A stretch of DNA of 64,000 nt. Source: Paraburkholderia flagellata. Lineage in GTDB: Bacteria > Pseudomonadota > Gammaproteobacteria > Burkholderiales > Burkholderiaceae. This document shows positions 17,151 through 46,253 of this stretch, in pieces (the first letter of the stretch is position 1; each line of letters starts with the position of its first letter). The stretch is taken from assembly GCF_021390645.1 (NCBI RefSeq), contig NZ_JAJEJT010000004.1, positions 806,001 to 870,000 on the forward strand. The letters run 5' to 3'. The translations under genes were made by a program, and so were the position numbers. The notes below the pieces were generated by a model, which searched no databases, was not told where the DNA came from, and saw only the letters and a list, made by a program, of their open reading frames with translations.

Positions 17151-17162
17151 ATACGAGCGTAT
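17151..17162. promoter_or_regulatory. ATAC-S-NN-S-GTAT operator, copy 1
   Basis: ATACGAGCGTAT, a palindrome centred about 100 bp upstream of the GTG start of the receiver protein at 17257. It is one of seven copies in the signalling island (see the copies at 29188, 36903, 40772, 41669, 45109 and 45984). Confidence 0.65.
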
Positions 17163-17256
17163 GATTCCGCCAGGCGGATTCCGTCATTACTATCAGCGCT
17201 GTCGGCCCGCGCTGGAGTTCTGTTCGGGCGCGCCGTTGTTGTTCAGGAGATCATGC

Positions 17257-17631
17257 GTGTCCGCCGCTCATCACGTCTGTGTGGTCGACGACGATCAGTC
17301 GGTTCGGCTAGCACTTGCCAGCTTGCTTCGTTCGCTCGGCTACGAAGTCGAAACCTTCGAATCGGGGAATGACGTCCTGCGCTGGCTCGCGCACAATCGC
17401 ACCGCGTGCGTCGTCTCCGATCTCCAGATGCCCGGCATGTCCGGCCTTCGAATCTTCGAGTGCATGATCGGCATGGGAGTCGATGCCCCGTTCGTGCTGA
17501 TCACGGCGTATCCGACTGCCGAAGTTCAGGCGCGGGCACTGTCGATTGGCGTTCGCGCATTCCTCACAAAACCGGTCAGCGCCCAGACGCTGGCAACGCA
17601 CGTCAAACAGGCCGTCAATCGAGACGATTAA
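17257..17631 (+). CDS. single-domain response regulator (receiver only)
   Basis: A 124-aa CheY-like receiver with no output domain. The acidic pair is in VVDDD, the phosphoacceptor is D55 in SDLQMPG, the switch threonine lies in LITAYP and the lysine is K105 in FLTKPV. The GTG at 17257 is chosen because AGGAGA stands just upstream and because the protein then matches its 124-aa paralogue at 29295 residue for residue in spacing. It is convergent with the giant kinase at 17615-22792, and their 3' ends overlap by 17 bp. A partnership with that kinase is inferred from position and from the matching arrangement at the other end of the module. Confidence 0.88.
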   Translation: MSAAHHVCVVDDDQSVRLALASLLRSLGYEVETFESGNDVLRWLAHNRTACVVSDLQMPGMSGLRIFECMIGMGVDAPFVLITAYPTAEVQARALSIGVRAFLTKPVSAQTLATHVKQAVNRDD

Positions 17632-20600
17632 CGCTTGAGCGCTGTGTTCCCGCCGGCGCCGCAAATGCAGCGGCGAGCGTAAAAACGAAGCACGCGCCAT
17701 GTGGCGTGTTGGGCTCGAACTCCAGCGTGCCGCCATGCCGTTCGATAATCGAGCGGCAGATCGACAAACCCAGACCCATGCCTGTGGCCTTGGTCGTCAC
17801 GAATGGTTCGAACAACGAACCCTCGACGCAGGGTTGCAACCCATGCCCCGAGTCGGCCACCGTAATTTCGGCCCGGCCGCCGCCCACATGCCGACTGGAG
17901 AGTGCGAGCACCCGCGCGCGCGAATCGACACTTGCCATCGCCTCCACGGCGTTGACAATGAGATTGAGCGCGACTTGCTGAATCTGCACGCGATCGCCCT
18001 TGACGAAAAAGTCCGGCGCGATGGCGTTATCGACTTCGACGTGGTTATTCTCGACTTCCGCGCCCGCGAGCAGCAGCGCTTCGGCAACCGCGCTCCTAAG
18101 GTCGAACACGGTTAGCGTGGGCGGCGCGTTCTTCGCCAACTCGCGTATGCCGTGAATGATGCTCGACGCGCGCAGGCTCTCGCCCGCCACGAGCGCGAGC
18201 ATCTTGCGCGCCTCATCGAGCGCGGGCGGCTCGCGCTCGAGCCAGTGCACGCCCGCCGAGGCCGACGAATGAATCGCGCTCATCGGCTGACTGATTTCAT
18301 GTGCGATGGATGCCACCAGTTGGCCCATGGTCGTGAGGCGCGTTACGCGTGCAAGCTCCGCCATGGCGTTGCGCAGCGCTTCCTCCGTATGCGCGATTCG
18401 CTGATTTTGCTCGACGAGATCCTGATAGAGGCGCGCGTTTTCGAGCGCGATGGCGGCCTGTGCGCCGAGCACCGAAAGCACCGCGATCTTGTCCTCGGTA
18501 AATGCGCTTTCGCTCAGCCGGTTCTCCAGAAAGATCACGCCGACCAGACCGCCTTGCTTGAGCAGCGGCAGGCAGAGCACCGACTTCGCCTGGGTCCTTC
18601 GCACATACTCGTCGCGCGTATAGCCGCCCTCTGTCGCCGCGCTGCCGAGCGCGAGTGGCTGCCCCGTGCGGATCACCGTGCGCACCAGCGTAAGCGGCAG
18701 GTCGTCACTCGAAATCTCGCGCCGCACGACGTTGACTTCGGCGAGTTCGGCGCGCGTCACGGCCTCGGCGTGAATCTGCAAGCCGCCCTCGTGGGTCAGC
18801 GCGAGCACGCAGCGCTGGGCGCCCGCGTGCTCGAGCGTCACGAGTGCGAGCGTCTCGATCAGACGGCTCAGCACGATTTCGCTGGACAGCGCACTCGAAG
18901 CCTTGATGATCGCGGCGATATCGAGTTGCTGCGAGGGGTAATCGAAAGCCGGCATCGGTGCGCTGGCCGCAGCCTCGGTCTTGAGGCCTCGCTCCGTCAT
19001 GGCGCGCACCTTGGCATTCGCGCCCCACCATGCATAGGCATGCGAAGCATCGCGCAAGTAGGCGTCGGCAATTGCGCCGCGGCCTTGCTGGCGATGAAAT
19101 CCCGCCGCGAGTTCGCACGCAAGCGCTTCGACATGCAGAATCCGCCGTTCGTGAGCGTGACGAATGGCCTTGTTATAGAGGTGTTCCGCTTCGCGGGCGC
19201 GGCCGTCGAGCCGCGCGATTTCGGCATCGACGAGCGCGGCCCGGCCCGTGAGATTCGCGGGACCGACATGCGCCCACGCAGCCAGTGCCGCGCTATGCGC
19301 GTCGAGCGCTTCACGGTGCGCGTCCTGTTCGTGCGGCGTAGCTGCCGTTTCGCACAGCTTCGCTCGCGTGAGTGCGCCAAAGAAGCGATATTCGATCAAT
19401 TCGAGGAACATTCTCGACGCGCCGATCGATCGCCTCGCCGCCACCTCCGCCTCGAGCGCCGCTTCGAAATCGCCGCAAATAAAGCTCGCCTGAAGCATGC
19501 ACGTCCAGTAGGCAAAGCCGACGCTCGTGTTGTTCGCACGCACCGCGTCGATGTCCCGCTGGTATTCCTCGTCGCCGGCTTGACCCGCCGAATCGCGCCG
19601 TCCCGCATTGCCAAGTTGTTCGACGAGCTGGATCTGCGCGCGGAAAACGCCCGAATACAGAAAGAAGCGCGACAACCTCGCGACGTTCAGACCATTCTTC
19701 GCCTCCGCCAGCACTTCGTCCAGCGGCCGGCCCGCGAGAAGCAGCACGCTCACGACATTGCGGGCGCCCGACACATCGAATACCAGATCGCCGTCCTCTT
19801 TCGCCACCTTCTTCGCTTGCTCGATATAAGGCATGGCGTCCTGGGCCGGCCGGCTCCAGGGAATCACGAGACTGCCAAAGCGCATGTAGATGCGCGCCTT
19901 GTAGCGGGATCGCTTGCAACGATCGACCACGTCGACGGCCAGTTGCGCGAACTCATAGCCCGTCTTGTAGTCGCCATAGCGCTCTGCGAACACGAGATTC
20001 AGGCAGACGAATCCATAGGCCGCTGAATCGGAAAGACCGTGCCGCAAACTCAGCAAGGTCAGGTTCAGCAGAATCACGTCGAGCAGATTGGCGTTGAAAA
20101 AGAGCGCGGGCGGAATGAGATCGGCGAGCACGTCGAGCGCGCAGCGCCACACCGGGTCTTCGACCCACGTGTTTTCGGCAAGTTGCGCAACCGATCTTTC
20201 GCCCAGCTCACTGCGCAATTGCCGGTAAAGTCGATCGACCTCACCGTCCGAAGGGCGCTCTTCGATGTTGACGCCGAGGCGGACCAGAAAATCGAGCCCC
20301 GTGGTCAGCGCCTGAATCTGCCGGTTCTGCGCGGTTTGCAGGCTCGCCGTCAAGCGCGTCAATTCCGCTCGCAACGCCATGCTCACCGGCTTGCGCCCGA
20401 GCGCCGCGAGCCGCGCCTCGGCGGGCGCGAGCGTGCCGATCAGGCATTCCACGTCGGCCCGGTGGAATTCCGTCCACTGCGCCGTGTCTTCGTCGGTGGT
20501 TTCGTCGATCAGCGCCGCCGCCGTTTCGAAATAGACGAGCGCCGACGTGTACGCGGTCGCCGCCTTCGCTCTTTCCCCTGCGAGCAGATTGAGGTAGGCA

Positions 20601-22792
20601 AAGCGCTTGCGCTCCTCGGGCGAAACGATCCGCGAAGCCCCACGATTGATCTGATTCGCGACGACGAAAAGTTCGTCGCCCGGCTCGTCCTCGCGCAGGC
20701 GCATGGCGAGCCTGCGCCCGATGTCGAGGTGCAGCGCTGCCTGTTCGCTTTCGCTCATCGACGCGTATGCGGCTTCGCGAATGCGGTCGTGCGTAAAGCG
20801 CAGCATGTCCGCATCGCGGTCGATGAGCGAAGCGTTGATCGCCTCGCGCAGGCTCGCCTCCAGCGCCGGCTTGCCGAGGCTCGCCGCCGCCGCGAGATCC
20901 GCGATCTTCGCGGCGCCACCCAGACTGGCAAAGACCTGCAATGCGTAGCGCGCGGCCTCGCCAAGGCGTGCGAAGCGCAGCAGCATGAGGTCCGCCACGT
21001 TGTCCGAATAGAGCTTGGCGCGAATGCGATCGACGTCCCGCAAGCGTAACGCGCCCTTTTCCTCGAATTCAATCAGCCCTTCGCTCGCGAGTTCCGCGGC
21101 AAGCTGAATCGTGAAAAATGGATTGCCGCCCGTCTTTTCCCGAATGATGTCGATCACCGGCAGCGACGCGTCGAGCTTGCAGCCCAGCGTATCGCCAACC
21201 AGGCGCGCCATGTCGCCGCGTTCGAGCGGCTCGACTGCAATCACCTGATGCCGGTCTTTCGCCTCGTCGATCAGCCGGGCGAGCGCATGCCCCGGTGTCA
21301 CTTCGTTGCTGCGAAACGCCGCGATGAGCATCACATGAGAGAGTTCGCCGTCGTGGGTCAGATAGTCGAGGACCGTGAGCGTGCCTTCATCGACCCACTG
21401 CATGTCGTCGAAAAACAGCACGAGCGGGCGCTCGGGTTGCGACACGCCTTTGAGCAGGTCGGCAATCGTGCGCAAATAAAGCGCTCTGTCTACATTGAAT
21501 TCCGTTTCGCCGGCGCTCGACAGTTCGCCCAATATTAGTTTTAGATCGGGCAAGAGGCCATAGAGAATTTCCGCGCGCCCGCCCATGCGCGCCACGAGGC
21601 GTTTGCGCGTCGCTGCGAAGTTCGCGTCTTCCTGACCGAGAATCGGGCGAATGAGCCGCTCGATCGCACGGACCAGCGCGCCATAGGGTTGGGTCGAATC
21701 GAGCTGTTCGCACACGCCCCGCGCGTACGAGATCGTCGTCGTGCCGATTGCGCTTGCCCATTGATCGATCAGCACGGATTTGCCGCTGCCCGAATAGCCG
21801 GCAACGAAGACCAGTTCGACCGCACCGCTCGCACTCACGCGGCGCAAGGTTGCATTGAGGGCGTCCATCTGGCCGCGGCGGCCATAGAGCGCGCCGGAGT
21901 GCCGGCTGATCGCAACGCTCGCGTGGAGGTCCAGCGGAAACGCGAGGGGAGCCTTGCGCTCCGACCCGGCGTTCAGGCAGCGCAACAAATCGGCCTGCAG
22001 CCCCGCCGCCGACTGGTAGCGGTCATTGGGATTCTTGGCGAGAAGCTTTATGACGACCGCTTCGACCTGACGCGGCAATCCAAGCGCATAAGCGGAAGGA
22101 CGCATGGGCTCCTTGGCGAGTTGCGCATGCGCGAGCGCCATTCTGTCGACTCCCGTGAACGGCAGCACGCCGGTGAGCATTTCGTAGTACAGACAGCCCA
22201 GCGAATAGAGGTCGGCGCGACAGTCCAGCATCCGCTCCATCCGGCCGCAAAGCTCCGGTGCCATGTATTCGATCGACCCGCTGCTGGCGCGATGAAGATT
22301 GGCTTCGTGAACCGAACGATCGACCGTCATCGCGTGACCAAAGCCAAGGAGGCACGCCGATTCTTCGGCATCGTCGAGCAGAAAATGATCGGGATTCAGG
22401 TCGCAGTGGATCAGCCCGGCTTCATGGAGCGATTCCACGGCGGCGGCCATCGCAATCGCGGCGCGCAGAAAGCGCTCGATTTTTTTCGGTGAACGCCAGC
22501 GCGCGCGCAAGAGCGTGCCGCCGGGGTCGCACAACGCGAGCGCGAAACAGCCGTTTTCCCGCAATAGCGCCTGGGGCCGTGCAGCCCATGGCGCTGTGAG
22601 ACGCGTGCGCAACGCATAGGCGTGCTCCAACTGCGCGCGCCGCTCGTGCTCCTTCGGGCCGTCCTCCGTCACCTCGAACAACACGCGTGCGCCTTCCTTG
22701 TTCACGCCGCGATAGAGCGCAGGCGGCCCTGCGACCAGTTGCGTGAGATCGTAGTCGGCCAGTTGATCGAGAATGGGCACGTAATGGCTCAT
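17615..22792 (-). CDS. multidomain kinase-like / AAA ATPase / GAF / sensor histidine kinase
   Basis: A 1725-aa cytoplasmic signalling protein. Its parts are a protein-kinase-like domain (about 10-275), an AAA-type ATPase (about 300-560; P-loop GYSGSGKS at 332-339, Walker B FFDDMQW), a long helical repeat region (about 600-1270), a GAF domain (about 1295-1455), and a histidine kinase. The histidine kinase has phospho-His 1498 in AHEISQP and ATP lid GMGLGLSICRSII. The kinase domain looks inactive: the VAIK lysine is missing, HRD is HCD at 129-131, and DFG is GFG at 150-152. The ATG at 22792 overlaps the upstream kinase stop (ATGA), so translation is coupled. The histidine kinase part appears intact, and the likely target is a receiver protein nearby. 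Confidence 0.9.
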   Translation of the reverse strand: MSHYVPILDQLADYDLTQLVAGPPALYRGVNKEGARVLFEVTEDGPKEHERRAQLEHAYALRTRLTAPWAARPQALLRENGCFALALCDPGGTLLRARWRSPKKIERFLRAAIAMAAAVESLHEAGLIHCDLNPDHFLLDDAEESACLLGFGHAMTVDRSVHEANLHRASSGSIEYMAPELCGRMERMLDCRADLYSLGCLYYEMLTGVLPFTGVDRMALAHAQLAKEPMRPSAYALGLPRQVEAVVIKLLAKNPNDRYQSAAGLQADLLRCLNAGSERKAPLAFPLDLHASVAISRHSGALYGRRGQMDALNATLRRVSASGAVELVFVAGYSGSGKSVLIDQWASAIGTTTISYARGVCEQLDSTQPYGALVRAIERLIRPILGQEDANFAATRKRLVARMGGRAEILYGLLPDLKLILGELSSAGETEFNVDRALYLRTIADLLKGVSQPERPLVLFFDDMQWVDEGTLTVLDYLTHDGELSHVMLIAAFRSNEVTPGHALARLIDEAKDRHQVIAVEPLERGDMARLVGDTLGCKLDASLPVIDIIREKTGGNPFFTIQLAAELASEGLIEFEEKGALRLRDVDRIRAKLYSDNVADLMLLRFARLGEAARYALQVFASLGGAAKIADLAAAASLGKPALEASLREAINASLIDRDADMLRFTHDRIREAAYASMSESEQAALHLDIGRRLAMRLREDEPGDELFVVANQINRGASRIVSPEERKRFAYLNLLAGERAKAATAYTSALVYFETAAALIDETTDEDTAQWTEFHRADVECLIGTLAPAEARLAALGRKPVSMALRAELTRLTASLQTAQNRQIQALTTGLDFLVRLGVNIEERPSDGEVDRLYRQLRSELGERSVAQLAENTWVEDPVWRCALDVLADLIPPALFFNANLLDVILLNLTLLSLRHGLSDSAAYGFVCLNLVFAERYGDYKTGYEFAQLAVDVVDRCKRSRYKARIYMRFGSLVIPWSRPAQDAMPYIEQAKKVAKEDGDLVFDVSGARNVVSVLLLAGRPLDEVLAEAKNGLNVARLSRFFLYSGVFRAQIQLVEQLGNAGRRDSAGQAGDEEYQRDIDAVRANNTSVGFAYWTCMLQASFICGDFEAALEAEVAARRSIGASRMFLELIEYRFFGALTRAKLCETAATPHEQDAHREALDAHSAALAAWAHVGPANLTGRAALVDAEIARLDGRAREAEHLYNKAIRHAHERRILHVEALACELAAGFHRQQGRGAIADAYLRDASHAYAWWGANAKVRAMTERGLKTEAAASAPMPAFDYPSQQLDIAAIIKASSALSSEIVLSRLIETLALVTLEHAGAQRCVLALTHEGGLQIHAEAVTRAELAEVNVVRREISSDDLPLTLVRTVIRTGQPLALGSAATEGGYTRDEYVRRTQAKSVLCLPLLKQGGLVGVIFLENRLSESAFTEDKIAVLSVLGAQAAIALENARLYQDLVEQNQRIAHTEEALRNAMAELARVTRLTTMGQLVASIAHEISQPMSAIHSSASAGVHWLEREPPALDEARKMLALVAGESLRASSIIHGIRELAKNAPPTLTVFDLRSAVAEALLLAGAEVENNHVEVDNAIAPDFFVKGDRVQIQQVALNLIVNAVEAMASVDSRARVLALSSRHVGGGRAEITVADSGHGLQPCVEGSLFEPFVTTKATGMGLGLSICRSIIERHGGTLEFEPNTPHGACFVFTLAAAFAAPAGTQRSSVNRLD

Positions 22793-25700
22793 GCGGCTAT
22801 CCCGTTCGCGTGCGCGGCGACCGCGCCTTCGACGCAGCTTCCTGGTGCGGCAAGTTCGAAGCAGAACGTCGCGCCCGCGTCCTGATTGTTGAACGCCCAG
22901 ATCGAACCGCGATGTTCCTCGATGATCGAGCGGCAAATGGACAGGCCAAGCCCCATGCCGTCCGACTTCGTCGTGAAGAACGGCTCGAATAGCCGATCGA
23001 CGATATCGGCAGCGATCCCTGTGCCCGAATCGCACACACACACGCGCACGGACTCCGCGCCAGCGCGTTCAGCCGAGATCTTCAGCACTCGCGTGCTGCC
23101 CGAGCACTTCAGGATTGAATGCATGCCATTGAAGATCAGGTTCATGACCACCTGCTGAATCTGGATCTTGTCGGCGGCCACCTTGGGCAAACCGTCTTCT
23201 GCGACGACACGCAGGCGAATATTGTTCTTTTCCATTTCCTGCCGAACGAGAGCCACCACCTCGGTGACGGTCTGCGTCAAATCGATGGCGGCGCGATTCG
23301 GGCGCTCCTTGCGCGCAAGCGCGCGCAGGCGGTTGATCACTTCACTCGCGCGATCCGCGTCGCTCACGATACGCGCAAGATTGTTGCGCGCTTCGGCGAC
23401 CGAAGGCACTGCGCGGTCCAGCCAGCGCATGCCCGCCTCGCCATGCGTGATGATCGCCATGAGCGGTTGCTTGAGGTCGTGCGCGAGCGACGCCGTCAAT
23501 TCACCGAGCGTCGAAACGCGCGTGACGTGCGTAAGTTCCGCCTGCGCACGCAGCAGCGCATTCTGCGCCTGGTGAATTTCAGTCATGTCGGCAAGGGCGC
23601 CGACGTATTCCACAGCCCGGCTAGCGGACGCGATTGGCCTCGCCACCATGCGCAGATACTTCACCGCGCCCGTTTCCACGCGCACGCGATACTCGGCTTC
23701 GATGATCGACGCGCCTTCCTCCGCCTCACGCAGCGCGCGCCTCACCTGATCTACGTCGTCGGGATGAATGCGCTCCAGCATGAGATCCATATGCAGCCGC
23801 CCGGGCTCGTCCATTTCCAGGATCCGATAGGTTTGCGCGGAGCACGTCATGTCGCGCGACTCGACATTCCACCCAATACTGCCGATATTGCTGAGCCGCT
23901 GGGCTTCGGAGAGATACATCTCGCCGCGCCGCAAAGCGTCTTCGAAGGCGCGCCGGTCCGTGACATCGGTCGTCGCGCCGATATACTCGCGCGCGCCGCT
24001 CTCGTCGCTCGACCACGGGCGGAAAATCACCTGCAGCCGGCGCACGCTGCCGTCGCTCTGCCGTGTCGAGAATTCGTGGCTGTGCATGCCGTCTTCGCAG
24101 ATCGCATTGACGAAGACTTCCTTGAAACGCAGCCGGTCCTCCTCCAGCACACACTCGAGGCACATTTCGATGGTCGGCCGCTCACACGTGAACGCCACGC
24201 CCCATAACTCGTAATTCTCGCGCGACCACAGCAATTGCCCCGAGGTCGTGTTCCAGATCCAGGTGCCCGTCTTGCTGATGCGCTGCCCCTCTTCGAGGAA
24301 CGCCTCGCTGCGCCTGAGACGCGCTTCAGTTTGGCGGCGCTCGACGTTCTCGCGCTTGAGCGCGGAATAGAGTCTCGCGTTCTCAATAGAAATGGCGGCC
24401 TGAGCGGCCAGCATGTTCATCAAGTTAATGCGTGCGAAATCGAACACATACGGCGTGACGCCGTTCTCCATATACAGCATGCCAACGAGCCCCGCATGCC
24501 GCAAAAGCGGCAGGCAGAGCAGCGACCGGCAGCGGCCCGTGCTGAGGTAACGGTCGTCGCGGAAGTCGTTGGGCTCCGCGCCGTCGTCGATGACGACGTT
24601 CTCGTGAACCCGCATGACATGGCGAATCACGGTAAGCGGCACCACGGACTCGCACAGTCCCATGTCGCTTGCTTCCACGGTAATGCCGTTCTCCCCGGAG
24701 CCAGCCTGGGCCACAATACGAAAGCTCTCGCCCGACCAGAGAATGAGCAACGCACGTTGCGCGCCGCTGTGCCGCACGGCAATCTGCATGAACGCCTGCA
24801 CCAGTTTGTCGAGGTCGATCTCGCTCGAAACGGCCTGGGACAACTGGACCATCGCGGCGACATCGACCGTGCCCTGTGGCGCAACATGACCTCCCGAACT
24901 GCGTGCGGCGGGTGCCCAGTCACGTAGATGGTGAAACGCCTGCTCGAGACTGCGCACCTTGGCGTCGGCGCCCCAACGCGCATAGACGTCGCGAGCCGAG
25001 CGCAGGCACGCGTGGGACACCGATGTCAGACCGCGTTGCAGGTAGAAGTGCGCCGAGCATTCACGCGCCATGGCCTCGTAATGCGGCTGCCCATTCTCAC
25101 GCGCCAGTTCGATTGCGCGTTCGTATTCCTGCTCCGCGTGGACATAGTCGCCCACGAGCCGCGCATATTCGGCCGTGACGAGCGCACAGCGGCTGCCGAA
25201 GTTCTCGGGCGCGCTTTGTGCCCATGACTTGAGCCGCTCGATGGCGTCGATGAGTTCGCGCTCCATCAATTCGCGTGCGGCTTCTTGTCCTGTTTCCTGC
25301 TGAACGTCGTCGATCACGCGCACGAGCGCAAGCGCGCGCAGAAAGTAGTACGTCACCTCAATCGGCATGGCCATGACCGCGCCGAGCAGCGGCTCGATCT
25401 CTCTCGCACGCGTAACCGTGGCAGCGAAGCGGTTGTGCAGAAAGTCCAGTTTCATCGCCATGATCGCGGCATAGGCGATACCGCAGCCAAACTGGCTCTC
25501 GCGCACGAACGAGACGAGTGCTTCATGCGTGCAAGCGATGCCCAGGTCCGCCGCGTCGACGCCCTGCAAGCGCAGCAGGAACATCAATTCGAGTTCGATC
25601 GTGACGCTAATCGTCTTGTTACGCAACTCGTTGGCAAAGCGCAGATTCTCGCGGCACAGGTTGGTCACCTCGTTGAGGTGCTCGCCGCGTTCATAGGCCT

Positions 25701-35416: not shown

Positions 35417-36697
35417 CTAAGCGAGCTTGCGTATCGGCCTGAATCCGGCGCGAACCTCCTGTGCGAAGAGCAACGGTTCTTCCCAGGCCGCGAAATGGCC
35501 GCCCTTGTCGACCGTGTTGAAGTAGACGAGATCGTGATAACTGCGCTCTGCCCAACTGCGCGGCGCCTGATAGATCTCACCCGGAAACACAGTGATGGCC
35601 GCCGGCAACGCGATATCGACCGCGTTGAAGTTATTCGAGTGATCTTCCCAGTAAATCTGGGCCGACGACGTCGCGCTGTTGGTGAGCCAGTAGAGCGAAA
35701 TATCGTCGAGAATCTCGTCGCGGCTCAGAGAACGCTCGGGAACACCGCCGCTATAAGTCCATTGGGAAATCTTGTCGTACATCCATGCCGCCTGGCCCAC
35801 GGGCGAATCGGCCAGGGCGTAGCCCACCGTCTGTGGACGCGTCACCATCATGGCCGAATAGCCGCAGTTGTCGCGATAGAAAACATTCAGTTTTTCGTAC
35901 GCACGTTTCTCGTCCGGGGAGAGGCTCGCGGGCGCGGGTTCACCCAGCGCAAGCAGCCGCGCAATATCCGGCGGCACGGTTGCGGGCATGTTCACGTGAA
36001 TGCCAATCAAGCCTTTTACGTGCTGCATGGCCATGCGGTGCGAGACGACCGAGCCGCAATCGCCCCCCTGGGAGACAAAACGTGCGTAGCCAAGGCGCCC
36101 CATCAGTTCGCCCCAAGCCCGCGCGATATGATCGGAGCCCCAACCTGGCGTGGTCGGCTTTCCCGAAAAGCCGAAGCCGGGCAAAGACGGTACGACCACG
36201 TGGAAAGCGTCGTCGGCGCTCCCGCCGAAAGCTGTGGGATCGGTCAGCGGTTTGATGGCCTTGGTCAGTTCGAGAATCGAGCCGGGCCAACCGTGCGTCA
36301 TGATCATCGGCAAAGCATTCTCGTGTTGCGAGCGCACGTGAATGAACTGGATATCCAGCCCGTCTATTTCCGTCACGAACATGGGAAATTCATTGAGTTT
36401 CGCCTCACCCTTGCGCCAGTCATAATCACTGCCCCAATACTGAACCAGCTGCTGCATGCGTGCGAGGCGAACGCCTTGCGATTCGTCGGCCACGGTTTCC
36501 TTTCCGGGCCAACGCGTATTGGCAAGACGCCGGCGCAAATCGGCCAGCGCAGCGTCCGGAATATTCGCCTTGAATGGGCGAATTTTTGCGTTCTGCGTGT
36601 CGGCGTAAATCGCTTCAGGAAAGAGCGCAAACGCGCCAACCGCCGCCGATGCGGCTAGCAGGTGGCGTCGCATTGGGGAAAAATCATTCGAAAACAT
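35417..36697 (-). CDS. exported epoxide hydrolase (EHN family)
   Basis: An alpha/beta hydrolase with the N-terminal EHN domain of microsomal-type epoxide hydrolases (about 40-150). The oxyanion segment is HGWPGS, the nucleophile is the aspartate of QGGDCGS and the catalytic histidine is in KGGHFAAWEEP. An N-terminal export signal with a twin arginine (PMRRHLLAASA then AVGAFAL) and cleavage near IYA suggests Tat export. I start at the ATG at 36697 because AGGATG precedes it; the ATG at 36715 has no ribosome binding site. The substrate is unknown; juvenile-hormone-like or xenobiotic epoxides are possibilities from the family only. Confidence 0.85.
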   Translation of the reverse strand: MFSNDFSPMRRHLLAASAAVGAFALFPEAIYADTQNAKIRPFKANIPDAALADLRRRLANTRWPGKETVADESQGVRLARMQQLVQYWGSDYDWRKGEAKLNEFPMFVTEIDGLDIQFIHVRSQHENALPMIMTHGWPGSILELTKAIKPLTDPTAFGGSADDAFHVVVPSLPGFGFSGKPTTPGWGSDHIARAWGELMGRLGYARFVSQGGDCGSVVSHRMAMQHVKGLIGIHVNMPATVPPDIARLLALGEPAPASLSPDEKRAYEKLNVFYRDNCGYSAMMVTRPQTVGYALADSPVGQAAWMYDKISQWTYSGGVPERSLSRDEILDDISLYWLTNSATSSAQIYWEDHSNNFNAVDIALPAAITVFPGEIYQAPRSWAERSYHDLVYFNTVDKGGHFAAWEEPLLFAQEVRAGFRPIRKLA

Positions 36698-37024
36698 CGC
36701 TGGCATCCTGTTCATAAGGGATAGTCAAATTGACGCGGCGACACGGCAACGCGTGGCTTTCACGCTGACGATCGTTTCCGGAAAGTCGCACCCCATTAAA
36801 GGCAGGCAATGTATCTCGCGTATGTCGGCTATGTAATCTTTCGTAAGCCGTAAATAAACACAGCCCACCCGGTTATGTTTTTCATTACGGCGGAATATCC
36901 ATATACGAAGGTATGTGGCTACCTATCCGTAAACATCTGTCGGCTCAATCCAGAATGGAATGGTCTGATCGTCTGCATCCGGTTACTCTGCTGGCAGCGG
37001 TAGAAATGCTCCGCCGTCCCGTTT
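36698..37024. other. divergent promoter region
   Basis: This region lies between the epoxide hydrolase gene and the OmpR-type regulator. It is AT-richer than the genes (36790-36910) and contains operator copy 3 at 36903-36914. I see no small gene. Confidence 0.45.
36903..36914. promoter_or_regulatory. ATAC-S-NN-S-GTAT operator, copy 3
   Basis: ATACGAAGGTAT, centred about 116-125 bp upstream of the OmpR-type response regulator and about 210 bp upstream of the divergent epoxide hydrolase gene. It could serve either gene. Confidence 0.6.
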
Positions 37025-37033
37025 ATGACGATC

Positions 37034-37825
37034 ATGGAAAAAATCGATCACATACTGGTTGTCGACGACGACCGCGGCATACGCGAACTGGTTGCCGGTT
37101 ATCTCCAGCGAAACGGCATGCAGGTCACGACCGCGTGCAACGGAAGGGAAATGCATGAGTATCTGGGAAGACATACACCCGACCTCGTCCTGCTCGACCT
37201 GATTCTGCCTGGCGAAGACGGTCTCGCGCTCTACCGCGGGTTGCGCGAAAGTCGCCATCGCGCGCTGCCCGTCGTCATGCTCACGGCCCGCTGTGATGTC
37301 ACCGACCGCATCGTCGGGCTCGAAATGGGTGCGGACGACTATATGGCCAAGCCATTTCAGGCCCGCGAACTGCTCGCCCGCATCCGGGCGGTGCTGCGCC
37401 GCACGCGCATGCTGCCACCCGACCTGCAGCCCGTGGACGATACGCCGGTCCTCGGCTTCGGGGACTGGCGCCTCGACACCACCGCGCGCCATCTGCTCGA
37501 ATCCGACGACACGGTCGTCGCGCTCAGCGGCGCCGAATATCGCTTGCTGCGCGTGTTTCTCGACCACGCGCAACGCGTATTGACGCGCGACCAGTTGCTC
37601 AACCTCACGCAGCGGCGCAACGCCGACCCGTTCGACCGCTCGATCGATTTGCTGGTGAGCCGGCTCAGGCAAAAATTGAACGACACGGCACGCGCGGCCC
37701 GTTACATCAAGACTCTGCGCAACGAGGGCTATGTTCTTTCCACGCCAGTGACGGTTCACCACGACGCGCGCGAAACCGCGCCGGGCAGTCGCGCCCGCGT
37801 AGAAAGCGAGGCGCTCTGTTTTTAG
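37034..37825 (+). CDS. OmpR-family response regulator
   Basis: A 263-aa two-domain regulator. The receiver spans about 5-120 (acidic DDD, phosphoacceptor D55 in LLDLILPG, K106 in MAKPF). The winged-helix DNA-binding domain spans about 135-235 (LSGAEYRLLRVFLDH, DRSIDLLVSRLRQKL, TLRNEGYVL). An ATG three codons earlier at 37025 is an alternative start; neither has a good Shine-Dalgarno. It resembles regulators of the OmpR/TorR group. The EnvZ-like kinase at 34151-35194 is the nearest candidate partner, although a P450 gene and an epoxide hydrolase gene flank it instead. Confidence 0.88.
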   Translation: MEKIDHILVVDDDRGIRELVAGYLQRNGMQVTTACNGREMHEYLGRHTPDLVLLDLILPGEDGLALYRGLRESRHRALPVVMLTARCDVTDRIVGLEMGADDYMAKPFQARELLARIRAVLRRTRMLPPDLQPVDDTPVLGFGDWRLDTTARHLLESDDTVVALSGAEYRLLRVFLDHAQRVLTRDQLLNLTQRRNADPFDRSIDLLVSRLRQKLNDTARAARYIKTLRNEGYVLSTPVTVHHDARETAPGSRARVESEALCF

Positions 37826-39609: not shown

Positions 39610-40296
39610 CTAGCGCTTGCGATCGCGCTGCGGCGACAAACGTAGCTTCGTCGCCATATTGACAAGCTCCGGCAGCGAATCGGCGCTCATCTTCTGCATA
39701 ACCTTACCGCGGTGCATCTTCACGGTAATTTCGCTGATGCCGAGTTCGCCGCCTATCTGCTTGTTCAGCAATCCCGAAACCACGAGCGCTATGACTTCCC
39801 GCTCGCGCGGTGTGAGCGTCGCATAGCTGTCGTGAAGCGCGCGCAACGCCATGTGGCTTTCGAGGGCGTCACGGCTTCGCTCGACGGCGTCGTGAATGGC
39901 CTCGAGCAACGTCTCGTCGTTGAAAGGCTTGGTCAGGAATTCGACTGCACCGGCTTTCATCGCTTTCACGGTCATGGGCACGTCCCCGTGACCGGTGATG
40001 AAGATGATCGGCATATCGGGCCGGTCGGCGGCAATGCGCTGCTGCAGTTCCAGGCCGTTCACCTGCGGAAGCGATACGTCCAGAACCAGACAGGTGGGCG
40101 CGAAAACGCGCGGATGAGCAAGAAAATCTTCGGCGCAAGCGAATATCTGCGCGTGCAGGCCTGCACTGCGCAGCAATAACTCCAGCGATTCGCGCACGGA
40201 AATGTCGTCGTCGATAACAAAGACAATGGGCTCGGCACGCGAACCGCTCGACGGCATGACGCCCTGACCTGCTCCACCTGCGTTACTTTGAGGCAC
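39610..40296 (-). CDS. FixJ/NarL-type response regulator with LuxR-type HTH (first of three)
   Basis: A 228-aa transcriptional regulator. Its receiver (about 22-140) has phosphoacceptor D73 in VLDVSLP and K123 in LTKPF. The DNA-binding domain (about 160-220) has LTPREREV, the turn GLLNKQIGGELGISE and the recognition helix EITVKMHRG. The GTG at 40296 has AGAGGA upstream. It is a close relative of FixJ/StyR/TodT regulators, which pair with PAS-type kinases such as the one at 41715-43952. It follows the receiver-only gene on the same strand with a 38-bp gap, so the two are probably cotranscribed. Confidence 0.9.
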   Translation of the reverse strand: MPQSNAGGAGQGVMPSSGSRAEPIVFVIDDDISVRESLELLLRSAGLHAQIFACAEDFLAHPRVFAPTCLVLDVSLPQVNGLELQQRIAADRPDMPIIFITGHGDVPMTVKAMKAGAVEFLTKPFNDETLLEAIHDAVERSRDALESHMALRALHDSYATLTPREREVIALVVSGLLNKQIGGELGISEITVKMHRGKVMQKMSADSLPELVNMATKLRLSPQRDRKR

Positions 40297-40334: not shown

Positions 40335-40694
40335 TCAGTTCTCGCGCAGCGCAACCTTGAGCGCCGCGAGAAGTGCCGTATCGCTAAAGGGTTTGAACAG
40401 GCAATCGCATGCACCCTGCGCGATCAGGCGATCGCGAACGGCGGCGTCTTTGTGAGCGGTAATGAAAACGACCGGCACGTTCTTGCCAAGACGCTTCAAC
40501 TCACGAAAAAGCCCCATCCCGCCCATACCCGGCATATTGATGTCGAGGATCAGACACTGGGTTTGATCGACAACTTCGGACGCGAGAAAAGCCTCGGCAG
40601 ACGAGAACACGCTCACGGCATATCCGAACACTCTCACCAGATCTGGAAGCGATTCCCGCACTGCTTCGTCATCATCGACCAACGTTACCAGCAT
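40335..40694 (-). CDS. single-domain response regulator (receiver only)
   Basis: A 119-aa CheY-like receiver with no output domain. It has the DDDE acidic pocket, phosphoacceptor aspartate in LILDINMPGMGG, a FITAH switch and a lysine in CLFKPF. The ATG at 40694 is used; a TTG at 40706 is possible. It lies directly upstream of a FixJ-type regulator gene on the same strand, and operator copy 4 is 70-85 bp upstream of it. It may compete with or relay to the FixJ-type regulators. Confidence 0.86.
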   Translation of the reverse strand: MLVTLVDDDEAVRESLPDLVRVFGYAVSVFSSAEAFLASEVVDQTQCLILDINMPGMGGMGLFRELKRLGKNVPVVFITAHKDAAVRDRLIAQGACDCLFKPFSDTALLAALKVALREN

Positions 40695-40771
40695 GATTGC
40701 CCGCAATCAAGTCTCGTTGAGACCACTACCCCGCTCCTTGAGGATGCACCATGCCGGGTGGAGAATCTACG

Positions 40772-40783
40772 ATACCTTGGTAT
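40772..40783. promoter_or_regulatory. ATAC-S-NN-S-GTAT operator, copy 4
   Basis: ATACCTTGGTAT, identical to copy 7, lying about 75-85 bp upstream of the receiver-only gene on the minus strand. It falls between that gene and the FixJ-type gene at 40839. Confidence 0.65.
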
Positions 40784-40838: not shown

Positions 40839-41570
40839 TCAAAGCCGCTGTGAACCGGCTAACGCCGAGCGGCGGCCTCTTGCGCGCGCACCGCCGGGCT
40901 GCCACGCAGCCTGGGCCTGCGGGCAAACCTTCGCGGCCATGATCACGAGTTCAGGCAAGGATCCCGCCTCCATTTTCTCCATCAGTCTGCCGCGATGCCC
41001 CTTTACCGTGATCTCGCTGATGCCAAGCTCCGCCGCCACCTGCTTGTTGAGCAAGCCGCACACCACGAGCGTCATCACTTCCCGTTCGCGCGGGGTGAGC
41101 GCGGCATAGCGCGCCTGGAGCACGCGGAGTTCGCTCTCCGTGTCGATCGCCTCGCGGCTGCGCTCGATGCCTTCGCGAATAGCGTCCACCAACGCTTCGC
41201 CATTGAATGGCTTGGTGAAGAATTCAATGGCGCCGGCTTTCATGGCCCGCACCGTCACAGGTACATCGGGGTAGCCGGTAATGAAAATGATCGGCATGTC
41301 GGCACGGTCGGCCACGATTTGGCGCTGCAAGTCCAGACCGTGCAGATCCGGAAGCGACACATCGAGCAGCAGGCAACTTGGCCCGCAAACGCGAGGGTGA
41401 GCGAGAAATGGCTGCGCGGAGCCGAACACCTGCGGCTGCCATCCGGCGCTGCGAATGAGCAATTCCAGCGATTCGCGCACGGACACGTCGTCGTCCACCA
41501 CGAACACAACAGGAAGCGCCTGCGAGACGCTCGCGGACATCTGTCGTTGAGTTTCGCCAGGTCTTTGCAT
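40839..41570 (-). CDS. FixJ/NarL-type response regulator with LuxR-type HTH (second of three)
   Basis: A 243-aa regulator. The receiver has phosphoacceptor D in LLLDVSLPDLHG and lysine in FFTKPF; the LuxR-type domain has LTPREREV, GLLNKQVAAELGISE and recognition helix EITVKGHRG. GAGGTAGGCC precedes the ATG at 41570. It is nearly parallel to the regulator at 39610 along its whole length, so the two are recent paralogues. About 25 extra residues rich in Arg and Ala follow the DNA-binding domain. It lies downstream of the PAS kinase on the same strand, with operator copy 5 between them. Confidence 0.9.
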   Translation of the reverse strand: MQRPGETQRQMSASVSQALPVVFVVDDDVSVRESLELLIRSAGWQPQVFGSAQPFLAHPRVCGPSCLLLDVSLPDLHGLDLQRQIVADRADMPIIFITGYPDVPVTVRAMKAGAIEFFTKPFNGEALVDAIREGIERSREAIDTESELRVLQARYAALTPREREVMTLVVCGLLNKQVAAELGISEITVKGHRGRLMEKMEAGSLPELVIMAAKVCPQAQAAWQPGGARARGRRSALAGSQRL

Positions 41571-41668: not shown

Positions 41669-41680
41669 ATACGGAGGTAT
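41669..41680. promoter_or_regulatory. ATAC-S-NN-S-GTAT operator, copy 5
   Basis: ATACGGAGGTAT, centred about 105 bp upstream of the FixJ-type regulator at 41570, in the 144-bp gap behind the PAS kinase gene. It implies a promoter independent of the kinase gene. Confidence 0.65.
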
Positions 41681-41714: not shown

Positions 41715-43952
41715 TCACGCTCCATAGACGGGAAGCGAGAACGAGAAGATCGCGCCGGGACCGTCCGTTGGGATCTCCGCCCAGAGACGCCCGTTCTGGC
41801 TCTCGATGATCGATCGGCTAATCGCGAGACCAATGCCCATGCCGTCTTGCCTCGTCGTATAAAAGGCATCGAAAAGCCGTTGCGCGTCTTGCGGGTCAAA
41901 GCCGATTCCCGAGTCCCGCACGGTCAAGCGGATCACTTCGTCCGACTCGGATTCGGTCTTCACCGTCACGCGCCGGGGCCGGTCGTCCACCGTGCGCATG
42001 GCATCCGCCGCGTTGCGCAACAAGTTCATGATGACCTGCTGCACCTGCACGCGGTCGCAGCCCGCGAAAGGCAGGCCCTCTGCGAACTCCATGCGCATGA
42101 TGACGCGCGCGCGGTCGAGATCGCCCTGCATGAGGGCGATGATGTCCCGCGCAGTGTGAGCGAGATCGACCGGTTCGATCGTGACGCTGCGCCTGGTGAA
42201 GAGCGCGCGTAGCCGCGTGATGACGTCGGCGGCGCGGTTGCCGTCGCGGATCGTGCGCCGCGCCGTTTCCTGCGCGCCTTCAATATTGGGGGGCACGGCC
42301 GCCAGCATGCGCAGGCAGGTGCTCGCGTTGGTCACGATACCCGCGAGCGGCTGATTGACTTCATGGGCAATCGAAGCCGTCAACGCGCCAAGGCTCATCA
42401 CTCTCGCGACATGCGAAAGTTCCGCGCGTGCCTTGTCGAGCGCCTCTTCCGAACTGCGGCGCTGGCTGATATCGAGCGTCGTGCCGCTATATTCCTTGCG
42501 GCCCGGCAGGTCCGTCACGCGGTGCGCGATCAGATGCAGATGCTTGATGCGCTGGTCCGGCATCAATAGCCGGTGCTGGCATTCGATATCGCTTTCGCCG
42601 CGCCGCCCCTGCTCGATGAACTGCGCGATGAACCCCATGTCCTCCGGGTGCGCTCGCTCGGCGATACGCTCTAGCGTAACGGGCGTGCCCGGCTCGAACT
42701 CGAAGATGTGGTAAATCTGCTCCGACCAGGCGATCTCATCCGTATCGGCATCCCACGTAAAGTTGCCCATTCTGGCCAGCGCCTGACCTTCGGCGAGGAA
42801 GGCCTCGCTGCGCCGCAATTCTTCCTCTGTGCGCTTGCGATCGTCGATGTCGATGTTGATGCCATACCATTTGACGACGTTTCCATCCTGGTCCCGCAAC
42901 GGGCTCGTGCGAAACAGAAACCATCGGTACTGGCCGTCGTAGCGCTGCATGCGCGCTTCCGCTGCGCCCGGCATGCGGCTTGCCATAATGTTGGTCCAGG
43001 CGCCCATGAGCCCCGGAAGGTCATCGGGATGCACTGCCTTGGTCCACTCGTGGTCCTTCACCTGCGAGAGCGTTCGCCCGAGATAATCCAGGTAGTACTG
43101 GTTATAGAATTCGCCCGTCCCATCCGGGCGCGCTGACCAGATGAGCGCGGGCAGCGCGTTGATCGTTTCGTTGAGGTGGCGCTCGCTCTCCGCAAGCGTG
43201 ATCTCGGCTCGCTTCCTGTCTTCGATATCGATGCACAGGAGAAACCAACGCAGAATGCTGCCGGCGCGATCGCGCAGCGGAAATCCACGCACGTTGACCC
43301 AGCGGTAAACGCCGTCTGCGCGCCGATGGCGGCTTTCGACGTTGTACGTCTTGCCGCTCGCAAGCGAGGCTTCCTGCGCCGCAATCGCCGCGTCGAGATC
43401 GTCCGGATGCACGATGTCGTGACTGCGCCAGGCTTTGAGTTCCTCGGATGACTTTCCGAAATAATCGAGCGTGAGCTGATTTTGACCTTCGACTTCGCCA
43501 GTCGGCGACGTCACCGTGACAGGCACCGGAATACACTCGACAATCAATTGCAGGTCGAGCGCCTGCCGATCGAGCGCTTCCTGAGCGTGCCGCAAGTCGT
43601 CGATATCGTTGCACGTCCCGCACCAGCGAACGATCTGGCCTTCGGCGTCGCGGATCGGACTGATTTGAATATCGAACCAGCGATGCTGGCCGTCGAAGCG
43701 ACGCAGACGCGCCGCGATTGCTCCAGGCTCCCCGGAAGCGAGAATGGCGTGGTGGCGCCCAAGCAGTTCTGGCAGGTCGCCGGGGTCTACCGTGTCCTGC
43801 CACTGCGAGCCGGAAGACGCCGCGAGGCCAAGGCCCGTGTATTCGGACCATTTTCGGTTGACGAAGTCGACCCGTCCGTCGGGCAACGCAGTCCATGCAA
43901 TAACAGACAGCGCATCCAGCACGAGGCCGGGATCAATGGCCAATCCCATCAT
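41715..43952 (-). CDS. cytoplasmic multi-PAS sensor histidine kinase
   Basis: A 745-aa soluble kinase. Four PAS/PAC units in a row (about 5-125, 130-255, 260-385 and 390-510) are followed by a DHp domain with His530 in SIAHEVNQPLAG and a HATPase with NLLRNAADAM, DSGIGF and GMGIGLAISRSII. The HEVNQPL box is typical of the FixL/TodS/StyS group, whose partners are FixJ-type regulators such as the three around it. No transmembrane segment is present, so it senses an internal signal. The first two codons are both ATG. PAS ligands (heme, flavin, aromatic) cannot be told from sequence. Confidence 0.9.
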   Translation of the reverse strand: MMGLAIDPGLVLDALSVIAWTALPDGRVDFVNRKWSEYTGLGLAASSGSQWQDTVDPGDLPELLGRHHAILASGEPGAIAARLRRFDGQHRWFDIQISPIRDAEGQIVRWCGTCNDIDDLRHAQEALDRQALDLQLIVECIPVPVTVTSPTGEVEGQNQLTLDYFGKSSEELKAWRSHDIVHPDDLDAAIAAQEASLASGKTYNVESRHRRADGVYRWVNVRGFPLRDRAGSILRWFLLCIDIEDRKRAEITLAESERHLNETINALPALIWSARPDGTGEFYNQYYLDYLGRTLSQVKDHEWTKAVHPDDLPGLMGAWTNIMASRMPGAAEARMQRYDGQYRWFLFRTSPLRDQDGNVVKWYGINIDIDDRKRTEEELRRSEAFLAEGQALARMGNFTWDADTDEIAWSEQIYHIFEFEPGTPVTLERIAERAHPEDMGFIAQFIEQGRRGESDIECQHRLLMPDQRIKHLHLIAHRVTDLPGRKEYSGTTLDISQRRSSEEALDKARAELSHVARVMSLGALTASIAHEVNQPLAGIVTNASTCLRMLAAVPPNIEGAQETARRTIRDGNRAADVITRLRALFTRRSVTIEPVDLAHTARDIIALMQGDLDRARVIMRMEFAEGLPFAGCDRVQVQQVIMNLLRNAADAMRTVDDRPRRVTVKTESESDEVIRLTVRDSGIGFDPQDAQRLFDAFYTTRQDGMGIGLAISRSIIESQNGRLWAEIPTDGPGAIFSFSLPVYGA

Positions 43953-44180: not shown

Positions 44181-44906
44181 CTATGAACGCATCCAAAAGG
44201 TTGAGGGACCCTGAACCGTCGTGTTAGCTGACTGCCCCGACGGCTCGACCCCGAGCACGACGGTTTGGCGTACCAGGTCGGCCACGGAGCGCACATTCAT
44301 TTTGCGCATGGCCTGGCCCCGGTGGATCTTGACCGTGACCTCCGCTATGCCCATTCTCGAAGCGATCTGCTTGTTCATCAACCCCGCCGCGACGTTGAGC
44401 AACACCTCCCGCTCGCGCGGCGTCAGCGCGTCCCAGCGCTCGCGCGCTTGCACGAGCGAGTTGTCCGCTTCGATACGTTGCGCGTCGCGCTGCAACGCGG
44501 CGACCACGGCGTCGATCATGTCCTGATCGCGAAAGGGCTTGGTGAGGAAGTCGATTGCACCCGCCTTCATCGCTTCGACAGTCATGGCGATATCGCCGTA
44601 GCCCGTCATGAAAACGACCGGCATGGGCGCGCGTTCCTGCCGTTCCTGCGTCAGGAGTGACTTCTGCAGCGCCAGGCCGCTTTGACCGCGCAAGCGGACG
44701 TCAAGCACGAGACACGATGGCCCCGGGCTCTTGGGCGCCGCCAGGAACGCTTCGGCGGAGTGAAAGGCATGGGCTTCCAGGTCAATCGAGCGCAGCAGGC
44801 TCGCGAGTGCGTCGCGCACCGAATCGTCGTCGTCCACGATATAGACGACTCCGGCAGGGGTGTTGACGTGAGGGGCAGCCGACCGGTCGGTCACAGTGTT
44901 TAGCAT
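44181..44906 (-). CDS. FixJ/NarL-type response regulator with LuxR-type HTH (third of three)
   Basis: A 241-aa regulator. The receiver has the phosphoacceptor in LVLDVRLRGQSG and lysine in FLTKPF; the DNA-binding domain has LTPREREV, GLMNKQIASRMGIAE and recognition helix EVTVKIHRG. It is more diverged than the other two FixJ-type proteins but keeps the same recognition-helix core. It is upstream of the PAS kinase on the same strand with a 228-bp gap. A weak operator-like match (CTACGATAGTGT) lies just before its start. Confidence 0.9.
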   Translation of the reverse strand: MLNTVTDRSAAPHVNTPAGVVYIVDDDDSVRDALASLLRSIDLEAHAFHSAEAFLAAPKSPGPSCLVLDVRLRGQSGLALQKSLLTQERQERAPMPVVFMTGYGDIAMTVEAMKAGAIDFLTKPFRDQDMIDAVVAALQRDAQRIEADNSLVQARERWDALTPREREVLLNVAAGLMNKQIASRMGIAEVTVKIHRGQAMRKMNVRSVADLVRQTVVLGVEPSGQSANTTVQGPSTFWMRS

Positions 44907-45108
44907 CTACGATAGTGTTCTGCAGTATTACGTTGTGCGAATTGAACCATCACACACACCTCCCGGGACCCATGGGACGCCGATGCCTGACTCACCAGCT
45001 GAAACGTCGCCCTTTGAAGCGCCAGCCGCGGGGCCGGCAGCCACCACGTGGCGCAATCGCTGCAACGCCAAGCCTGAAGCTTACATCGCGCGTTCATGCG
45101 AGGCTGTA

Positions 45109-45120
45109 GTACTTTGGTAT
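45109..45120. promoter_or_regulatory. degenerate operator, copy 6
   Basis: GTACTTTGGTAT differs from ATAC-S-NN-S-GTAT at two positions. It lies about 80 bp upstream of the small plus-strand ORF at 45195 and about 210 bp upstream of the FixJ-type regulator at 44906. Confidence 0.4.
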
Positions 45121-45194
45121 TGGGGAGTCCGGCCGCGCCGATGCAGCCCGATCGTTTCGCGGGAAATACTGAAGGGAAGGAGAAATCCCAAATA

Positions 45195-45338
45195 ATGAAT
45201 CTTACGCGCCGGGTTCTAATGTTTTTGTGGCGCCATGCCTGGCTATTCGGGGTCGGCCGTGTGAGCGCCCCACTGCTCAAGCGACACGGCCAGTATCATC
45301 GCCCCCGAATTCAAAGGGATCTTGTAGCGCCGCGCTAA
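45195..45338 (+). CDS. possible small protein, 47 aa
   Basis: A plus-strand frame opening MNLTRRVLMFLWRHAWLFG, a short hydrophobic basic N-terminus that could insert in a membrane. AAGGAG lies about 12 bases upstream, slightly far. Its last 96 bp overlap the 3' end of the DUF3331 gene on the other strand. No family is recognised. The upstream degenerate operator is the main reason for listing it. Confidence 0.3.
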   Translation: MNLTRRVLMFLWRHAWLFGVGRVSAPLLKRHGQYHRPRIQRDLVAPR

Positions 45339-45809
45339 CGGCCGAAAAACGGCATCGCCTCGCTTGATCGTCGCTCCGGAAAGTACGCAGATGCCCGACT
45401 TTCTGGCGATTGCCCGCTTCCAGACCTGTTCACGGTAGCTGCAGCGCGTCGGGTCGCTCCACGAGAGCGTGAACGAAGAATTGGCCAGTCGCTCTTCGAT
45501 CGTGACCGTGCAGTTTCCGTATGCCTTGTCATCCGCGGGCCGGAGGTCGCTTCGCGTGTGCGTCGCGCTCACGCGGCGCGCAACGCTCGTCCTCGAAGCC
45601 GGCGAGGCAAGCAGGCCCGAGACCACGTGCGCCCACGCATTCCGCGAGCAGTCCGGCGCTGAGACTTCCACGCAATCGCGCGGCGCGTGTGTTTCGTCGT
45701 TGGCGTCATTGACACCACGTGGCTGCGCGAGGCGCATGCTTTCGCCAGGGCCGCCGCCATCGAGTGCGGCTCCCGCGTATGTCGACCGCAACGAATCCAA
45801 TCTCACCAC
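45243..45809 (-). CDS. DUF3331 domain-containing protein
   Basis: A 188-aa protein whose second half (about 95-180) is a DUF3331 domain: LSWSDPTRCSYREQVW, CVLSGATIKRGDAVFRP and SGAMILAVS are the family landmarks. The family is known mostly from Burkholderia-group genomes and has no assigned function; the Cys-x2-SG pattern hints at a small metal- or DNA-binding fold but this is a guess. The start is one of two adjacent GTG codons (45809 or 45806), because GGAGG stands just upstream. Operator copy 7 lies about 180 bp upstream, so it may belong to the two-component regulon. Confidence 0.75.
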   Translation of the reverse strand: MVRLDSLRSTYAGAALDGGGPGESMRLAQPRGVNDANDETHAPRDCVEVSAPDCSRNAWAHVVSGLLASPASRTSVARRVSATHTRSDLRPADDKAYGNCTVTIEERLANSSFTLSWSDPTRCSYREQVWKRAIARKSGICVLSGATIKRGDAVFRPLARRYKIPLNSGAMILAVSLEQWGAHTADPE

Positions 45810-46253
45810 GGCTACCTCCCATATTCTGGATGAGCGTGAATGTCACGCGTGCCCCATCTTCCGAAGCCGGAACGCCTTTGTATTGCGTCCACATATTTCG
45901 AATGACCGAAGCTTAAGGAGAAGTGCGGCAAGCCGGTATTCTTCCCGCGCATAGACTGATTGACGCTTTTGGATGGCGACCCTATACCTTGGTATACATT
46001 CATCGGTCGGCACCATGTTCAGCGGCGCAGCGCCCACGGCGCCGCCCGCCCCGCAGCACGAGGACTCAGTCGCATGATTGCCAACGACGCGCAGGCATTC
46101 GCCTGCATTGACGGCCGCCTGCAGCCCGGCGAACGCGAACGACGCGGCGGTTGATGAATTCGATGATAATGACAGCCTGAATATTTTAATTCAGCATGCC
46201 AAATTAATTAACCGATCACCATTCCAGATGAGGCGGCTCTTTGATCTGTCTTC
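45810..46253. other. 444-bp intergenic stretch
   Basis: Besides operator copy 7 it has two tiny plus-strand frames (20 and 26 codons at about 46016-46155, overlapping as ATGA) with no ribosome binding site. The segment 46165-46245 is strongly AT-rich and includes a CTGAAT/ATTCAG inverted repeat at about 46178-46195. It is probably the end region of the DUF3455 gene and promoter of the DUF3331 gene. Confidence 0.4.
45984..45995. promoter_or_regulatory. ATAC-S-NN-S-GTAT operator, copy 7
   Basis: ATACCTTGGTAT, identical to copy 4, with flanking T and A extending the symmetry to TATACCTTGGTATA. It lies about 180 bp upstream of the DUF3331 gene on the minus strand. Confidence 0.6.

Follow-up and report, generated by a model that had tools for sequence, protein, structure and literature searches.

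Here we analysed a 64-kb stretch of the genome of Paraburkholderia flagellata (positions 806001–870000 of its contig C4; hereafter 'the window') and found that a palindrome that recurs in its signalling island, ATAC-N4-GTAT, is very probably a real operator. In its fuller form, ATAC-(SWWS)-GTAT, it is likely to be the operator of FixJ/NarL-type regulators with the recognition helix TVK-[I/V]-HRG, and in the window it would most likely be bound by the regulator encoded at 44181–44906 on the minus strand (helix TVKIHRG), with activation as the outcome. The sites are mostly intergenic, lie close to promoters and recur with the regulator in relatives. Two further regulators of this type are encoded in the island, at 39610–40296 (minus strand; helix TVKMHRG) and 40839–41570 (minus strand; helix TVKGHRG). 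In all three, a receiver domain (PF00072) is followed by a GerE helix–turn–helix (HTH) domain (PF00196), the architecture of the NarL/FixJ family.

A pattern scan of the window found six exact copies of ATACSNNSGTAT, where 0.04 are expected (standard deviation of 0.20, dinucleotide shuffles); six or more were reached in none of 100 shuffles. These copies, and a degenerate copy at 45109 (GTACTTTGGTAT), are all located where the initial annotation of this DNA had placed them, no further exact copy is present, and the chance estimate of 0.25 made at that time was conservative. When one mismatch is allowed (ATACNNNNGTAT), the total rises to 12 sites where 4.71 are expected. Five exact sites lie upstream of response-regulator genes, as had been noted, with 66–111 bp between site edge and gene start, and the sixth precedes a gene for a DUF3331 protein. 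On the plus strand, ATACGAGCGTAT at 17151–17162 and ATACCTCCGTAT at 29188–29199 each precede a gene for a single-domain response regulator (17257–17631 and 29295–29669, both on the plus strand); the first of these proteins matches Pfam Response_reg, and its operator ends 94 bp before the start. The site ATACGAAGGTAT at 36903–36914 is situated between genes for an OmpR-type response regulator (37025–37825, plus strand) and an epoxide hydrolase (EHN plus alpha/beta hydrolase; 35417–36715, minus strand), the latter divergent from the operator. The remaining sites are read on the minus strand: ATACCAAGGTAT at 40772–40783, which is 66 bp from a single-domain regulator (40335–40706, minus strand); a second ATACCTCCGTAT at 41669–41680, with 99 bp to the start of 40839–41570; the one-mismatch copy ATACCAAAGTAC at 45109–45120, some 200 bp away from where the 44181–44906 gene starts; and the exact copy at 45984–45995, the distal member of a three-copy array in front of the DUF3331 gene (45243–45809, minus strand). 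The S positions of the operator are a preference and no rule: when the window is pooled with the comparison loci (L075–L254), 61% of the 129 unique ATAC-N4-GTAT sites have an SNNS centre.

The association with a class of regulators was examined in 100 loci of the genus (1.37 Mb; L075–L174) around relatives of the 40839 regulator, taken in order of homology and irrespective of the motif. Rows from the own genome were excluded, overlapping rows were merged, one row (G027:C1:3429090) was skipped and the homology list was followed part-way. In the first 40 of these loci, a spacer of 4 gave 41 sites, compared with 2, 0, 4 and 7 for spacers of 2, 3, 5 and 6, and seven control palindromes occurred 0–3 times each. 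Among 42 loci with TVKxHRG helices (x not A), ATAC-N4-GTAT ranked top of 2816 (256 × 11) gapped palindromes, with 47 unique sites (duplicates removed by flank similarity) against 1.81 expected, in 27 of the 42 loci; it also came first in the 12 loci whose helices are mixed or of another kind (20 unique sites against 0.74 expected). In the AHRA, AHRG, xHRA, HRR and YR helix groups, it was outside the six top listed palindromes. Two full regulators that did not match the HTH expression (L160 and L161) and receiver-only proteins stand outside these helix-class counts.

Grouped by clade, with a looser HTH expression and with L075 left out, the 44181 clade (helix TVK-[I/V]-HRG) had sites in 41 of its 56 loci in the genus (76 sites against 2.5 expected), compared with 5 of 34 loci of the 40839/39610 clade (6 sites against 1.9 expected); loci of ambiguous clade had sites in 3 of 9 cases. 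The contrast of 41/56 and 5/34 gives a Fisher p of about 7e-8, which is uncorrected for relatedness and, as the loci are mutually related, indicative. This contrast bears on the possibility that the island's three FixJ-type regulators all use the operator, or that it belongs mainly to 39610 or 40839, hence cross-regulation. All three helices fit TVKxHRG (x = M, G and I), one exact site precedes the start of 40839 itself and another precedes the single-domain 40335 gene and then 39610, and relatives of 40839 from named organisms are enriched for sites (see below); however, genus relatives of 40839 and 39610 have almost no sites, and their helices are mostly AHRA, AHRG or VHRR. We regard a shared operator as rather unlikely. 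The initial annotation had proposed an operator of the FixJ family acting on the island, and this has strong comparative support, refined within the genus to the 44181 clade; cross-regulation by all three regulators stays what it was in that earlier reading, an inference.

A sister class of regulators in the same genus, with AHRA helices, offers a comparison. In 19 AHRA loci, the top palindromes were TTGG-N8, GGAC-N4 and ATTG-N10, all parts of CAATTGGACCWWGGTCCAATTG, and GGAC-N4 had 21 unique occurrences against 3.3 expected, in 11 of the 19 loci. The near-perfect palindrome CAATTGGACCWWGGTCCAATTG often flanks these regulators (for example, at L088:9093, L094:16944 and L104:11641) and is apparently the operator of the AHRA class. 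It has the 4-nucleotide (nt) centre in common with the operator described here and differs in its half-site, TGGAC.

The position of the sites relative to −10-like hexamers is also non-uniform. With every site counted in both orientations, 22 of the 172 oriented exact sites are followed by TANNNT at exactly 25 nt, against a mean of 1.66 per offset, and the hexamer also occurs in 17 at offset 68 and 12 at offset 40; for one-mismatch sites, it occurs at offset 25 in 17 of 312 (mean of 1.98 per offset). From the 25-nt spacing (layout A), the centre of the operator would lie near −43.5, the position of a class II activator. Three sites of the window fit layout A: 17151, with TACTAT at 17188–17193 (plus strand); 29188, with TAAGCT at 29225–29230 (plus strand); and the degenerate 45109, with TAAGCT at 45078–45083 (minus strand). 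For 39 layout-A sites, 31 target genes were found, of which 22 are receiver-only (Pfam) and one is the FixJ-type 44181 regulator; the other eight encode two histidine kinases, a major facilitator superfamily transporter, an AraC-type protein, a protein without family, DUF417 in two cases and an acetolactate decarboxylase in one. Two loci have a pair of layout-A promoters each (L160:1414 and L160:2051; L161:871 and L161:1547) that have gtttgt in common downstream of the operator; the genes behind them do not seem to be receivers, and DUF417 appears among the layout-A targets scanned.

In layout A, the sequence after the operator has the consensus gaTTtc, not TTGACA, as expected of activator-dependent promoters. 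This argues against repression from a site that abuts the −35 region, which we consider unlikely. A centre at −43.5 does touch the −35 region, and StyR—the closest solved relative of the 44181 regulator (E 1.1e-50)—has been proposed to repress when its sites STY1 and STY2 are jointly occupied (PMC2442086, available excerpt).

In a second arrangement (layout B), the exact site is distal and degenerate copies follow 21 and 42–43 bp downstream. At 45984, the second copy (45963–45974, minus strand) matches 5 of 8 core bases and is 21 bp from the first; the third (45941–45952, minus strand; also 5 of 8) is 25 nt before a −10-like TAAGCT at 45910–45915 (minus strand), which has an offset of 68 from the exact operator. 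Over 24 sequences, the second copy has a mean of 4.21 of 8 core matches (background of 1.91). Where the hexamer is at 68, 14 of 17 sequences have a third copy (at least 4 of 8 matches) that precedes it by 25 nt; where it is at 67, 5 of 7 do. We prefer offset 68 as the −10 of layout B because it resembles the TANNCT of layout A and is mostly 25 nt from the third copy; TAGAAT at offset 40 (12 of 172) is a possible, less favoured −10. A leaderless start at the ATG after the offset-68 hexamer was rejected, as frames from the first ATG or GTG have fewer than 50 codons in 20 of 24 sequences. Sixteen genes were scanned for 20 layout-B sites and include three LysR-type, two OmpR-type and one single-domain regulator; DUF3331 genes recur behind the array promoter (3 of the 16).

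Across the whole genome (9.0 Mb, 6 contigs), there are 16 sites, compared with 3 for the reversed pattern, and 6 of the 16 fall in this 29-kb island. The binomial probability of at least 6 of 16 sites in a 28.8-kb stretch is about 8e-12, which is indicative only as the stretch was picked after the sites had been seen. Nine of the ten sites outside the island are without a receiver gene within 10 kb, and, in the nine of the ten for which the surrounding locus was scanned, TANNNT is absent at offset 25; these outside sites are therefore mostly compatible with chance. The exception, C4:583871, has two receiver genes nearby and, on the minus strand, TANNNT at 68 and a 4-of-8 copy at 43. This covers part of the check suggested earlier, the genome-wide distribution of the sites. 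Over 58 genomes from the genus, 554 copies of the motif compare with 227 of the reversed pattern (motif above control in 50 genomes, equal in 6 and below in 2). The number of regulator matches per genome, counted among the matches listed (E no higher than 1e-30, with no more than 48 candidates scored per genome), correlates with the number of motifs once genome size is allowed for (rank-based partial r 0.36, p 0.005), compared with an r of 0.01 for the control. Of the 85 unique sites in the genus, 75 lie between genes; intergenic DNA makes up 18.6% of bases. A relative, G016 (L075), keeps the sites at 36903, 40772, 41669, 45109 and 45984 while the nearby sequence differs; at 45984, both arms are unchanged and the spacer is changed.

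Loci from named organisms, of which the best 80 were kept, extend the pattern beyond the genus. The loci fall into four groups, and ATAC-N4-GTAT ranked first in all of them: 12 sites against 0.54 expected in a largely Burkholderiales group, 10 against 0.18 in Pseudomonas with one Stenotrophomonas, 19 against 0.99 in a largely alphaproteobacterial group and 5 against 0.30 in Acidobacteria, Verrucomicrobia and others. Intergenic DNA, 19.8% of bases here, holds 36 of the 46 unique sites. Fifty genes facing these sites were found and 49 were scanned (one of 70 amino acids was left out), with a receiver domain in 18 and a histidine kinase ATPase domain in 5. Among the 77 loci assignable to clades, sites occur in 14 of 25 loci of the 44181 clade (19 sites against 0.77 expected) and in 13 of 39 ambiguous loci (20 sites against 0.77 expected). 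An epoxide hydrolase of the EHN type faces the operator in three distant lineages: in the window, in Novosphingobium (L253:8759-10033) and in an acidobacterial metagenome-assembled genome (L254:3046-4425).

These data leave a negligible probability for a chance or compositional palindrome. Elsewhere in this genome, nine of ten sites do look like background, but the excess over shuffles, the specificity for a spacer of 4, the ranking by helix group, the intergenic bias, the 25-nt spacing and the first rank in four groups of organisms oppose chance, which is very unlikely as the source of the island set. It is also highly improbable that the site is the target of some other DNA-binding protein associated with these regulators, such as the OmpR-type 37025. 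Other regulators are present in the island, and OmpR-type regulators were 2 of 14 layout-B targets in the first batch scanned, but the motif tracks FixJ-type regulators across phyla and in the sister class the 4-nt centre is kept and the palindrome is another one. Direct repeats are the usual targets of OmpR-type proteins, which again weighs against such an origin.

Several observations count against the assignment of the operator to TVK-[I/V]-HRG regulators, and to 44181 in particular, or against a uniform promoter geometry. In the genus, 15 of the 56 loci of the 44181 clade are without an exact site, and three loci with the helix KTHRA all have sites (6 in total), so that the helix does not predict the operator without exception. 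Farther away, in the loci from named organisms, the separation of the two clades blurs: sites are in excess around the 40839 clade as well (5 of 13 loci; 6 sites against 0.31 expected), and the assignment to 44181 is weakened because the clade counts contrast less there. Neither layout is shown by 51 of 93 site entries (22 show layout A and 20 layout B). These include 36903, 40772, at which offset 25 reads CATCCT, and 41669, at which it reads CATCGT, both without TANNNT. Two arrays (L129 and L148) have the third copy at 42 while the scored hexamer is at 68. Finally, TANNNT at offset 25 is uncommon beyond Burkholderiales. The Pseudomonas group has none among 20 oriented sites (4 are at 24 and 6 at 67 or 68), the largely alphaproteobacterial group 1 among 38 and the rest 1 among 10.

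On the reading that we favour, a phosphorylated dimer of the 44181–44906 regulator would bind the operator and, with its centre near −43.5, would activate sigma-70-type promoters from beside the −35 region in the manner of a class II activator. It would drive the single-domain regulators behind 17151 and 29188 and, via 45109, its own gene; the operator in front of that gene suggests autoregulation, which is probable. The three-copy array, with copies 21–22 bp apart, would drive the DUF3331 gene, and the sites at 36903, 40772 and 41669 would extend its control to the OmpR-type regulator and the remaining two of FixJ type. The single-domain regulators driven in this way could be phosphate sinks or connectors to large kinases.

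Two such kinases are encoded in the island: a protein kinase–AAA–GAF–histidine kinase hybrid of 1808 amino acids (17615–23041, minus strand), convergent with the 17257 regulator, and a protein kinase–AAA–GAF–PAS–histidine kinase hybrid of 2008 amino acids (22789–28815, minus strand; bounds of the longest open reading frame), divergent from operator 29188. Both adjoin a single-domain regulator with a layout-A promoter. A PAS histidine kinase of 745 amino acids (41715–43952, minus strand) is, by its position, a candidate partner. The gene 40335–40706 is upstream of 39610–40296 in its direction, and the 38-bp gap indicates that the two are probably in one transcript. Further genes around the island sites encode a smaller histidine kinase, a P450 and a sigma-70-family factor. 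The start of the 17257 regulator was re-set to a GTG (the longest open reading frame begins at 17068) on the basis of the reading frame and a Shine–Dalgarno-like AGGAG; other gene starts in the window are longest-frame guesses.

Regulators of the TVK-[I/V]-HRG subclass are found in many soil and plant-associated bacteria, and a shared operator with, at part of the sites, a fixed geometry lets their target genes be read from sequence. The targets suggest that the subclass switches on genes for single-domain regulators, a feedback or feed-forward wiring between two-component systems, and the contrast between helix class and half-site makes the DNA-recognition code of the family directly testable. 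We tentatively propose, as a possibility that falls somewhat short of probable, that the TVK-[I/V]-HRG subclass keeps ATAC-SWWS-GTAT across Proteobacteria and Acidobacteria/Verrucomicrobia as standard wiring to single-domain regulators (and repeatedly to an epoxide hydrolase), and that one- or two-residue changes of the helix lead to sister operators of the same 4-nt centre, which would amount to a readable recognition code. By title and start of abstract, no paper in the open-licence literature was found that assigns ATAC-N4-GTAT (or the string TACNNNNGTA) to a response regulator, which is weak evidence of absence; the string itself gave hits to a CsoR-type regulator from Thermus (PMC10318464) and to a plant paper on an unrelated subject (PMC5435750).

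Among known systems, StyR and its subgroup are the most instructive. According to the available excerpt of PMC5874301, the StyR/TodT/TutB/TmoT subgroup uses ATAAAC-N4-GTTTAT, and the putative DNA contacts of StyR are Lys175, Val176 and His179; the 44181 regulator has K, I and G at these positions. The subgroup resembles the regulators described here in its NarL/FixJ-type receiver and HTH domains and in a palindrome with a 4-nt centre and half-sites that end in AC, but its half-site is AAAC, whereas the sites here are ATAC-N4-GTAT, and it serves styrene and toluene operons, whereas the predicted targets here are single-domain receivers, other regulators and DUF3331 genes. In loci L075–L254 (two left out), AAAC-N4-GTTT is near background (19 against 15.2 expected), and as a positive control it speaks against us, being absent from two named loci with the StyR-type helix KVHRH. 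TdiR, for which the same excerpt gives the proposed operator GGTGTTCGCACC at anaerobic toluene genes, shares the family, the 12-bp length and the 4-nt centre and differs in its half-site, GGTG. FixJ (PDB 5xso) is a sequence relative (E 2.4e-38) with the same domain architecture, but its helix in the alignment is TIEVYRANVMTKM, compared with TVKxHRG here. StyR, as described in the available excerpt of PMC2442086, dimerises on phosphorylation, binds DNA and activates from a site at about −40; its promoter has several sites, of which the high-affinity one is at about −40, and activation is from STY2, with repression proposed on joint occupation of STY1 and STY2. At part of the sites studied here, the spacing to the −10-like hexamer likewise puts a palindrome with a 4-nt centre near −40, and the simplest reading is that the 44181 regulator would share the mode of action of StyR with another half-site.

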